Source of the DNA: Acidobacteriota bacterium
GTDB lineage: Bacteria; Acidobacteriota; Vicinamibacteria; Vicinamibacterales; 2-12-FULL-66-21
DNA: 64,000 nt
NCBI GenBank assembly: GCA_003222675.1
Contig: QHWT01000074.1
Span: 62,001-126,000 of the forward strand
Direction: 5' to 3'
The position numbers and the translations under genes are program-made. The notes below the pieces were generated by a model. That model did not search any database. It had not been told where the DNA came from and saw only the letters and a list, made by a program, of their open reading frames with translations. Below are positions 15,662 through 18,531 of this stretch, piece after piece (position 1 is the first letter of the stretch; every line of letters begins with the position of its first letter).

Positions 15662-16243
15662 CTAGCGCTTCTCGATCACGCCACACGCGACGCGTGGGCC
15701 GCCGCTCACACCCGACTTCGGCTCACCCGTCGTCATCTGATCCGGATTGCCGTGGATGATGATGGCGGAGCCGTCCGCGTCGAACAGCGACAGCGGCCCG
15801 GGCGACAGCGTCACCCGCGACGTGACTGCCTTCATCGTGCCGCGTCCCTTTGCGTCGACCTGGAGGTTGGGAAGGTCTCCCATATGAAACGGGTGGTTCG
15901 CGTCCGGATCGGGGTTACCCGCCGGCCCGGGATCGAAATGTCCGCCAGCGGCGGTGAAGTCCGGTGTGCACTTGCCGACGGCATGGAGGTGCACGCCGTG
16001 CTGACCCGGCTTCAAACCCGTCACCGTGAGGGTGATCTGGACCACTTTTCCCGCACCTTGCTGCTCCTCGACGAACTCCGCCCGTCCGGTAACCTGATCG
16101 CCCTTGATATCTGCGTGCCCGCGGATGTTGCCGGTGCTCGAAGTGGCCGCCGACGAAGCTGGTTTCTGTGCTTGCCCCAGTGCGGCGACTACGGCGCCCA
16201 CGAGGACCATGGCTCCCGCTATCATGAATCGATGCTGCATCAT
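15662..16243 (-). CDS. sodC: Superoxide dismutase [Cu-Zn]
   Basis: The 193-residue product is an exported Cu/Zn superoxide dismutase that removes superoxide in the periplasm. A signal segment (MIAGAMVLVGAVVAALGQAQ) precedes the domain. Copper and zinc ligands are visible in GVHLHAVGKC, AGGHFDPG, NPDANHPFHMGDLPN and IIIHGNPDQ; the disulfide partner is in GGPRVACGVIEK. AGGAGG lies only 1 nt before the first ATG (16243) and 4 nt before the second (16240), so the true start may be slightly inside. It is divergent from the HAD gene, with 34 bp between. Confidence 0.93.
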   Translation of the reverse strand: MMQHRFMIAGAMVLVGAVVAALGQAQKPASSAATSSTGNIRGHADIKGDQVTGRAEFVEEQQGAGKVVQITLTVTGLKPGQHGVHLHAVGKCTPDFTAAGGHFDPGPAGNPDPDANHPFHMGDLPNLQVDAKGRGTMKAVTSRVTLSPGPLSLFDADGSAIIIHGNPDQMTTGEPKSGVSGGPRVACGVIEKR

Positions 16244-16277
16244 GCCTCCTCGACGCGTAATCTACCATTTCACACGT

Positions 16278-16988
16278 ATGCCGAGTCGAAGCAACACACG
16301 TCACCTCATCCTGTTTGATATCGATGGCACGCTCGTCCTGACGGGCGGGGCCGGGCTGCGCGCGATGAATCGCGCCTGCGAGGACGTCGTTGGCCACGGC
16401 AAGGCGCTCGACGGCATTCCGGTCGCCGGCCGCACCGACTGGAGCATCCTCGAAGACGTGATGCGACTGCACGACAGGCCGCTCGATGCGGGCCTGTTCG
16501 AGGATCTTCGCGTCCGATACGTCATGCATCTTCGTGACGAGATCGAACGGCCAGGCACGGGCGCGAAAGCGGTGATGCCAGGTATCCGCGAGCTGCTCGA
16601 TGCGCTGCAGGAGCGCTCCGATGTCGCGCTGGGTTTGCTGACGGGCAACTTCCTCGATGGCGCGCGCATCAAGCTCGAGCACTTCGATCTCTGGAGGTAC
16701 TTCCGGTGCGGGGCGTTTGGTGACGACTCGTCGGATCGCAACACGCTGGTACCGGTCGCAATCGCGCGCGCGCGCGCATGTGGGATCGGTGACATGGATC
16801 CGGCAGATGTCATCGTGGTCGGCGACACGCCGCACGACATCGCGTGTGCCGTGGCGGTTGGCGCGATGCCGATTGGCGTGGCGACCGGAAGCTACTCTGT
16901 CGACCGCCTGCGCGAGAGCGGCGGGACGATTGTGTTCAGCGACCTGAGTGACACCGACGCGTTCATGAAGCTGCTGGACGCGCGATAA
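16278..16988 (+). CDS. HAD family hydrolase (phosphoglycolate phosphatase-like)
   Basis: The product (236 residues from ATG 16278) has all HAD motifs: motif I LILFDIDGTLVLTGGAG, motif II GLLTGNF, and motif IV VVGDTPHDIACAVAVGAMPIGVATG. The helical cap between residues 20 and 90 resembles Gph/PGMB-type phosphatases. The likely role is hydrolysis of a small phosphorylated metabolite in the cytoplasm. The start is set by the motif I distance; the longer frame upstream runs through sodC antisense. Confidence 0.85.
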   Translation: MPSRSNTRHLILFDIDGTLVLTGGAGLRAMNRACEDVVGHGKALDGIPVAGRTDWSILEDVMRLHDRPLDAGLFEDLRVRYVMHLRDEIERPGTGAKAVMPGIRELLDALQERSDVALGLLTGNFLDGARIKLEHFDLWRYFRCGAFGDDSSDRNTLVPVAIARARACGIGDMDPADVIVVGDTPHDIACAVAVGAMPIGVATGSYSVDRLRESGGTIVFSDLSDTDAFMKLLDAR

Positions 16989-17160
16989 TCAGCCGCGAGC
17001 GAGCGCCGTCCGCCTCCGCGCAAAAGCGCTTCGGCGGGACGGCCTTCGGCTGGAGTTGCCAGTGCGCAGCGGCCTGCCGCGCCGTAGCTCGTTTCGAGCC
17101 CGCGAGGGGAAGGCGGGAGATGGGGAAAGTGAAGGGGGCCCATCGAGCGTAGTCAGGAAC

Positions 17161-17258
17161 GGAAGCGAACGGGGCCCGGTGGCCCTCCCGGTCTTCAAAA
17201 CCGGTTGCTTCCCGCGTTGAGCGGGAGGGCTGAGTTCGACTCTCAGGCGCTTCCGCCA
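17161..17258 (+). tRNA. selC: tRNA-Sec (anticodon UCA)
   Basis: A 98-nt tRNA with selenocysteine-specific architecture. The 8-position acceptor arm is GGAAGCGA paired with GCGCTTCC, with one mismatch. A 6-bp D stem closes a 4-nt loop (GGGGCC-CGGT-GGCCCT). The anticodon stem CCGGT/ACCGG holds loop CTTCAAA with UCA at 17195-17197. A long variable arm pairs CTTCCCGC with GCGGGAGG. The T arm is CTGAG-TTCGACT-CTCAG. The discriminator is G and the CCA end is encoded. No selA, selB, selD or clear selenoprotein lies in the window. The flanks (16989-17160 and 17259-17423) show no gene. Confidence 0.95.
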
Positions 17259-17423
17259 TCCGCCTCCGCTCGCGTTCGATCGCACGCGAGCTACGGCGCG
17301 ATGTCGCGCCGAAGCACCGGAGGTGCGGAGGCGGACAGCCTTCGCACCCTCCCGCGATCTTCGGCCAGCCGGGGGTTTTCGACTGGGGCGCACCCCGCAT
17401 CCCGGACCCCGCGTCCCCAGGGC

Positions 17424-18065
17424 CTATCCGCCAACTCCAAGGCGATACACAATCAGCTTCTGCAGCTCCGACAGCACGTACCGCATATCCGCGCGGTGAC
17501 GCCACCAGTGTGCGGGATCGGACACATCGTACCGCGTCGTCCGCAGGCTGATTGCAATGCCGCTCTCGCGGAACTCGCGGCGGAACGCAAAACCGGCGCG
17601 CCGCGAATGGTACTTGGAAGTGATCACCAGAATACTGCGCCAGCCGCGCGCAGCGGCCTGAGCCCGCAGCATTTCGGCTTCCTGGCCGGTGTTGTCGACA
17701 GACGCTTCGGGAAGAATGATGGCGGACGCGTTGACGCCCATCTGCACCATCGCATCACGCGCGAGCGACGCGTTGGTCGGATACCGAATCCCGCGCGCCC
17801 TCAGGATTACTTCGGCGTCTTCCATTCGTCCCGGGCTGAGTACGATGACCGGCGCGTAGCCTGCTTTGTAAAGATCCACCGCTTCCATCCAGCGCTCCGC
17901 GCGCGCGCCATCGAGCACCACGATCACATCTGCGCCGACGAGTGGATCCTCACGAACGAGATAGCGCCCCGCGAACGGCAGGAAGACCGCGGTCGCGCAG
18001 GCCAGCGCCAGCATCACCGCGAGCGTCAGGCGACGTACAGCCAGCAGCACGCGGCGCAACATCAT
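17424..18065 (-). CDS. YdcF/SanA family (DUF218) membrane-anchored protein
   Basis: The product (213 residues from ATG 18065) has one N-terminal membrane segment (LTLAVMLALACATAVFLPFAG) and a DUF218 domain: DVIVVLDGARAERWMEAVDLYKAGYAPVIVLS, NTGQEAEMLRAQAAARGW, and ILVITSKYHSRRAGFAFR. Family members (ElyC, SanA) act at the envelope in cell-wall or lipid-carrier homeostasis, but the biochemical activity is unsettled. The longer frame upstream overlaps the cold-shock gene and its terminator, so it is not used. Confidence 0.8.
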   Translation of the reverse strand: MMLRRVLLAVRRLTLAVMLALACATAVFLPFAGRYLVREDPLVGADVIVVLDGARAERWMEAVDLYKAGYAPVIVLSPGRMEDAEVILRARGIRYPTNASLARDAMVQMGVNASAIILPEASVDNTGQEAEMLRAQAAARGWRSILVITSKYHSRRAGFAFRREFRESGIAISLRTTRYDVSDPAHWWRHRADMRYVLSELQKLIVYRLGVGG

Positions 18066-18099
18066 CGGGCGAACAGGAAAGAAGGAGAAAGAAGGACGA

Positions 18100-18150
18100 C
18101 AGAAGCAAGAACAAGGAAGAACGGGCCGCAAGCGCGTGGCTCGCGGCCCC
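18100..18150 (-). terminator. Rho-independent terminator of the cold-shock gene
   Basis: On the minus strand GGGCCGC and GCGGCCC (18149-18143 and 18129-18123) form a 7-bp GC stem. A T-rich run TTCTTCCTTGTTCTTGCTTC follows. It lies about 20 bp after the cold-shock stop. Confidence 0.65.
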
Positions 18151-18169
18151 CAGCACTGCAGGTCTGCGG

Positions 18170-18376
18170 TCAGCCTTCGATCAGCCGGACCTCGCCGGCG
18201 CGCGGACCTTTTCCGGATTCTTCGGGCGTGAACTCCACCCGCTGCCCCTCGCGCAACAGCTCGAACACGGCGCCGCGGACGGAGCTGCGATGAAAGAAGT
18301 GCTCGATACCGCTCTCGTCGCGGATGAATCCGAACCCCTTGTCGATCAGGAGTCGAGCGATCGTCCCGGTTGGCAT
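18170..18376 (-). CDS. Cold-shock domain protein
   Basis: The 68-residue product is a CspA-type nucleic-acid-binding protein. RNP1 reads DKGFGFIRDE and RNP2-like residues are in IEHFFHRSSV. The C-terminal part VEFTPEESGKGPRAGEVRLIE is typical of CSD proteins that act as RNA chaperones. ATG 18376 is chosen because GGAGGA (18389-18384) lies 7 nt upstream. The frame could extend to 18505 but that region is untranslated leader. A promoter at 18532-18560 gives a leader of about 150 nt, and a terminator follows, so it is probably monocistronic. Confidence 0.9.
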   Translation of the reverse strand: MPTGTIARLLIDKGFGFIRDESGIEHFFHRSSVRGAVFELLREGQRVEFTPEESGKGPRAGEVRLIEG

Positions 18377-18531
18377 ACCCGTGTCCTCCGATGTACGGCA
18401 CCCCCGGGGAGATCCCGGAGGCTCACAAGCCGAGCGCAGGAGAACACTACGTCCTAACCGACACGTGTCTCGCCGCGACCCCGCGCGCACCAGCCCGGAA
18501 GCCAATGCACGCTGAGCTTGAAAACGGCGCC

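Follow-up and report, generated by a model that had tools for sequence, protein, structure and literature searches.

The window, by which we mean the whole 64,000-nucleotide stretch of DNA that was analyzed, contains a sole tRNA according to ARAGORN, a 98-base tRNA-SeC (tca) whose coordinates and strand are exactly those of the selenocysteine tRNA (tRNA-Sec) named in a preliminary description of this DNA (Table 1). The covariance model proposed there as a check did not fail, as Rfam RF01852 matched positions 17161-17254 over the full model length at 61.4 bits (gathering score 47; E 4.8e-10), and the tRNA-Sec cloverleaf is also the minimum-free-energy fold (-51.0 kcal/mol; z -2.49 versus dinucleotide shuffles). 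The acceptor strands GGAAGCGA and GCGCUUCC form seven Watson-Crick pairs and an A·G mismatch at pair 8, which is the near-complete 8-position stem of the preliminary description, while the D stem has six pairs (one of them G·U) and the anticodon, variable, and T stems have five, eight, and five, respectively. The 8/5 acceptor/T helix accordingly has 13 positions, 12 of which are paired. The remaining elements that had been described, i.e. the 6-bp D stem, UCA anticodon, long variable arm, and encoded CCA, are all present by ARAGORN and the fold, and they are, together with G73, a 4-nt D loop, and a covariance score above the cut-off, among the features by which a bacterial tRNA-Sec is recognized. 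It should be noted that the RF01852 cut-off is not specific, as it is also exceeded, at 50 bits, by a tRNA-Ser(UGA) encoded in the same genome. Therefore, the score alone does not establish identity, which is settled by the anticodon together with the long D stem. ARAGORN assigned the other RF01852 matches of the genome that were submitted to it to tRNA-Ser, Leu, Trp, and Lys, and among the RF01852 matches examined only the window tRNA-Sec has a UCA anticodon. The locus is an ordinary bacterial tRNA-Sec gene (selC), an expected find of a known kind, with the mismatched pair 8, seen in most relatives too, as its single mild peculiarity.

Table 1. The tRNA-Sec gene of the window, its parts, and its syntenic neighbors.
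Feature	Position	Strand	Basis
tRNA-Sec gene (selC), CCA included	17161..17258	+	ARAGORN, Rfam RF01852, fold
Acceptor stem 5' strand GGAAGCGA; partner 17247-17254; pair 8 = A17168·G17247 mismatch	17161..17168	+	fold
D arm: 6-bp stem, 4-nt loop CGGU	17171..17186	+	fold
Anticodon arm, loop CUUCAAA; UCA anticodon 17195-17197	17188..17204	+	ARAGORN, fold
Long variable arm; 8-bp stem 17208-17215/17221-17228	17205..17229	+	fold
T arm; 5-bp stem CUGAG/CUCAG	17230..17246	+	fold
Acceptor 3' strand GCGCUUCC, discriminator G73 (17255), encoded CCA (17256-17258)	17247..17258	+	sequence, fold
HAD-family hydrolase, syntenic left neighbor (context only)	16104..16988	+	Pfam, synteny
DUF218/YdcF-like protein, syntenic right neighbor (context only)	17424..18401	-	Pfam, synteny

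The source had been called a probable acidobacterium, and this assignment is supported by the GPI protein of the window, which shares 62-82% identity with proteins from seven MAG records of Acidobacteria (one of them labelled gp6), as well as by synteny of the tRNA-Sec neighborhood in three of the seven (L081, L082, and L083). The host is a Vicinamibacterales/subdivision 6-type acidobacterium. Its genome assembly comprises 7.16 Mb in 152 contigs and is 99.9% complete with an estimated 3.9% contamination. The tRNA had been taken to predict selA, selB, and selD elsewhere in this genome and all three were found, dispersed over different contigs: selA on contig 152 (443 bits; 539 bits to TIGR00474), selB on contig 139 (335 bits), and selD on contig 36 (344 bits), the last with one in-frame TGA. 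Neither selA nor selB, whose absence had been named in advance as evidence against the call, is missing; both are intact and full-length. SelB contains EF-Tu-like domains together with the Pfam domains SelB-wing_2 and SelB-wing_3, and these winged-helix domains are SECIS-binding. A SelA-like protein of ~465 aa, the second one seen, is encoded at L010 on the minus strand of contig 33. It may have an export leader, scores 51 bits to PF03841, and is probably a PLP enzyme related to SelA rather than a Sec synthase.

The expectation of at least one UGA-decoding gene was likewise borne out, as at least three genes of the genome contain one in-frame UGA at the catalytic position followed by a SECIS-like hairpin, namely selD and two formate dehydrogenase alpha genes, FDH1 on contig 84 and FDH2 on contig 98. 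The UGA contexts are LTDFAACAG-U-ASKLAAGELAQV in SelD (motif CAG-U-ASKLAAGEL), ENQARV-U-HGPTVSSLGPTFGRGAMT in FDH1 (motif QARV-U-HGPTV), and SNQARI-U-HSSTVPGLGTSFGRGGAT in FDH2 (motif QARI-U-HSSTV). When the TGA is read as Sec, TIGR01553 (cut-off 814) matches FDH1 at 1339 bits and FDH2 at 899, and NF041513 (cut-off 1400) matches FDH2 at 1588. The position of the residue in SelD, a catalytic Sec in the N-terminal loop, is that of published Sec-SelD (PMC13188914). Among relatives, exactly one TGA was found in 16/16 active-site-bearing FDH-N frames (from 15 of the 40 genomes searched) and in 28 of 32 SelD matches. Sec-containing SelD is commoner in the order than Sec-containing FDH-N, and several near-complete genomes have tRNA-Sec and Sec-SelD with no FDH-N match (e.g. 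G008, G009, G058, and G080). This pattern agrees with the view, already published, that the Sec trait can be maintained by SelD (PMC1794560, PMC13188914). In one genome (G071; L339), tRNA-Sec and selB accompany a SelD with Cys in place of Sec (CAGCASKL); this genome has no FDH-N match, and no selenoprotein gene was recognized in it from the SelD or FDH-N searches.

Both types of hairpin were compared across relatives. In 14 FDH sequences, 94% of the cells of the stem 15-21/27-33, located 3' of the UGA, are paired versus a shuffled mean of 77.8%, and none of the slid registers of this stem came near that pairing. Ten cells are changed on both sides, including pairs 18-30 and 19-29. U17 is present in 14/14 of the aligned FDH hairpins and G23/U24 in 13/14. 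The FDH hairpins share with the E. coli-type FDH SECIS the spacing of U17, G23, and U24, the positions important in the E. coli fdhF SECIS. The one exception is FDH2 of the source genome itself (L026, 1594-1650, contig 98), in which the loop is GGG instead of GGU; this G for U24 turns the glycine codon GGT into the synonymous GGG, and the other 13 aligned hairpins keep U24. The GGG loop still fits the published bacterial SECIS model, whose loop has G and then either G or U (PMC13188914). For SelD (27 sequences), the stem 30-35/41-46 is 97.5% paired, and its pair 33-43 is paired in 27/27 as C-G (13), U-A (12), or G-C (2), with one side at a third and the other at a first codon position. The SelD hairpin loop lies ~13 nt farther from the UGA than that of the E. 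coli-type FDH SECIS and falls inside the published range of bacterial SECIS loop distances, 16-37 nt (PMC13188914). The pair counts across relatives, which do not represent independent events given that the SelD and FDH sequences are mutually related, support both types of predicted hairpin.

The locus is almost certainly selC of an acidobacterium whose Sec pathway serves the UGA codons of two FDH alpha genes and of selD. From this set of genes, codons, and hairpins, we infer a route from tRNA charging to enzyme activity that would follow the standard bacterial pathway. Seryl-tRNA synthetase would charge tRNA-Sec with serine, SelD would make selenophosphate, and SelA would use this selenophosphate to convert Ser-tRNA-Sec to Sec-tRNA-Sec. 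SelB would then bring Sec-tRNA-Sec to UGA codons having a SECIS hairpin downstream, which in the source genome would be those of the two FDH alpha genes and of selD itself, for read-through into enzymes that are predicted to be active. Two features weaken this reading, the eighth acceptor pair not being Watson-Crick and the FDH2 SECIS loop having a G where E. coli-type loops have U24.

The distribution of tRNA-Sec was surveyed in both the order and the phylum. At E ≤ 1e-9, 114 of the 162 genomes of the order carried it, as did 236 of 396 genomes of a phylum sample; among the good genomes of the order, the figure was 75 of 100. selB was also found in 114 of the same 162 genomes, with both present in 101, tRNA-Sec only in 13, selB only in 13, and neither in 35 (Fisher p 2e-14, by a test that ignores genome relatedness). 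Selenoproteins in Acidobacteria had already been reported in 2006 (PMC1794560) and the Sec trait is therefore not new to the phylum; the present system adds a well-supported case of Sec decoding in largely uncultured acidobacteria. When a diverged tRNA-Sec was sought in the selB-bearing genomes without a match, ordinary tRNA-Ser, Leu, and similar tRNAs were found instead, the exception being G139, in which tRNA-Sec is cut at a contig end. The stretches around selB or selD in G012, G123, G047, G055, and G154 contained no tRNA. Three of these genomes (G012, G047, and G123; L356, L357, L358, and L359) have selB, a TGA-bearing SelD, and a TGA-bearing FDH with no recognizable tRNA-Sec, for which assembly gaps or a diverged tRNA are possible explanations. 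A second class of tRNA-Sec in the order (L031-L036 of G109, G093, G111, G036, G110, and G037) has a GGAGAAGG acceptor with all Watson-Crick pairs. This class lies outside the usual neighborhood, mostly on the same contig as selB (on another contig in G036), and was possibly acquired horizontally. In G154, ARAGORN also reported a tRNA with a CTA anticodon (L269, 1503-1592), which it labelled Pyl. This tRNA reaches 45 bits against the tRNA-Sec model and is perhaps an amber-reading long-arm tRNA or an allo-tRNA.

Allo-tRNAs with unusual cloverleaves are known in Acidobacteria and resemble tRNA-Sec structurally without functioning as such (PMC7609411), which raises the question of whether the window gene might be a tRNA-Sec-like allo-tRNA or a serine suppressor tRNA that reads UGA. 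The mismatched pair 8 and the passage of a tRNA-Ser through RF01852 both speak in favor of such a reading, and the two kinds of tRNA also share a long variable arm, a serine-type character, and occurrence in Acidobacteria. However, allo-tRNAs have a 12-bp acceptor domain, arranged as 8/4 or 9/3, and anticodons that are mostly not for serine (PMC7609411), whereas the window tRNA has 13 acceptor/T positions with a 5-bp T stem, and this helix is as expected for tRNA-Sec, as are the 6-bp D stem, G73, and UCA. Moreover, no other RF01852 match examined has a UCA anticodon, the genome has selA, selB, and selD, and throughout the order tRNA-Sec and selB tend to occur together. On these grounds, we consider an allo-tRNA or a suppressor tRNA very improbable.

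Scattering of the sel genes over different contigs and the U24G change in the FDH2 loop could instead be read as signs that the Sec system has been lost and that the tRNA is a decayed or silent leftover. The tRNA stems are intact though, as are the full-length selA and selB, the in-frame UGA is conserved in selD and FDH across relatives, and tRNA-Sec is kept in 114 genomes of the order, all of which make decay just as hard to credit as an allo-tRNA. It is more improbable still that the contig is a contaminant of the metagenome bin, as might be suspected from an assembly of 152 contigs with 3.9% estimated contamination. The order GPI-ErpA-PHP-ABC-HAD-tRNA-YdcF-Csp-MobA is conserved in relatives, including the three named Acidobacteria records, and conservation of the gene order around tRNA-Sec makes stray contamination very unlikely. 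A working selC in a Sec-decoding acidobacterium remains the favored reading.

The window tRNA-Sec resembles the E. coli-type 8/5 tRNA-Sec described by RF01852 in that its acceptor and T helix spans 13 positions, its 6-bp D stem closes a 4-nt loop, its variable arm is long, and UCA, G73, and an encoded CCA are present. It differs in having A·G at pair 8, where E. coli has C7-G66 (PMC9976931), and C-G as the first T-stem pair, where E. coli has G·U. Bacterial tRNA-Sec variants with a 12-bp (7/5) helix are also known (Secmarker, PMC5330540), and they too have one acceptor base pair fewer than the textbook 8/5, except that their acceptor/T helix is shorter, whereas the window tRNA keeps the 13th position in mismatched form. 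The order contributed 78 distinct tRNA-Sec, of which 66 have A·G at pair 8, 2 have A·A, and 10 have a Watson-Crick pair; non-standard pairs never occur at the other 12 acceptor/T-stem positions. Pair 8 is non-standard in 27 of 46 distinct sequences of the phylum sample, which were picked from high scores and are therefore biased against mismatches, and in 11 of 18 from other phyla reached via named loci. We can thus reject the mismatch as a peculiarity of the order, as it occurs in other Acidobacteriota and in several other phyla, and C·A, A·A, G·G, and G·A were all encountered outside the window. When sequences from the several phyla were pooled, pair 8 was non-standard in 106 of 142 distinct sequences, compared to a total of 3 non-standard cells for the remaining 12 positions. 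A standard pair 8 often goes with G·U at pair 9, and 126/142 have at least one of the two irregularities, a mismatched pair 8 or a G·U at pair 9. In reviews citing Rudinger et al. 1996 (PMC9976931, PMC6267555), the antideterminant of E. coli tRNA-Sec against EF-Tu is given as C7-G66, G49·U65, and C50-G64, and pair 8 of the window tRNA-Sec corresponds to the C7-G66 site. A literature search of partial coverage found no paper describing the pair-8 mismatch. Judging from these alignments, it appears to be an irregular acceptor/T junction, and not an eighth Watson-Crick pair, that many lineages keep. A tentative extension, which we regard as possible but rather doubtful, is that in many bacteria the choice of SelB and not EF-Tu by Sec-tRNA-Sec would be set by this irregularity, either the pair-8 mismatch or a pair-9 G·U as in E. 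coli, instead of by an eighth Watson-Crick pair. The non-standard pair 8 raises the question of whether the "long acceptor stem" rule of E. coli is really a distorted acceptor/T junction rule.

The gene order GPI-ErpA-PHP-ABC-(SOD)-HAD-tRNA-Sec-YdcF-Csp-MobA is present, whole or in part, in most loci of the order. Within it, tRNA-Sec has a fixed place between HAD and YdcF/Csp and is often flipped in strand (window 16104-18401 and loci L037-L078). Of 30 syntenic loci, 12 have tRNA-Sec and HAD on one strand and 18 have them on opposite strands, and a flip is seen even within one genus, between the window and L061. Flanking inverted repeats were considered as a cause of these flips and are not supported in general, since they are clear in the window only and relatives are without comparable repeats. 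In the window, three nested inverted repeats surround tRNA-Sec (16999-17019/17325-17345, 17028-17040/17303-17315, and 17078-17091/17287-17300), and the 14-nt repeat is longer than any obtained in 200 shuffles (maximum 12).
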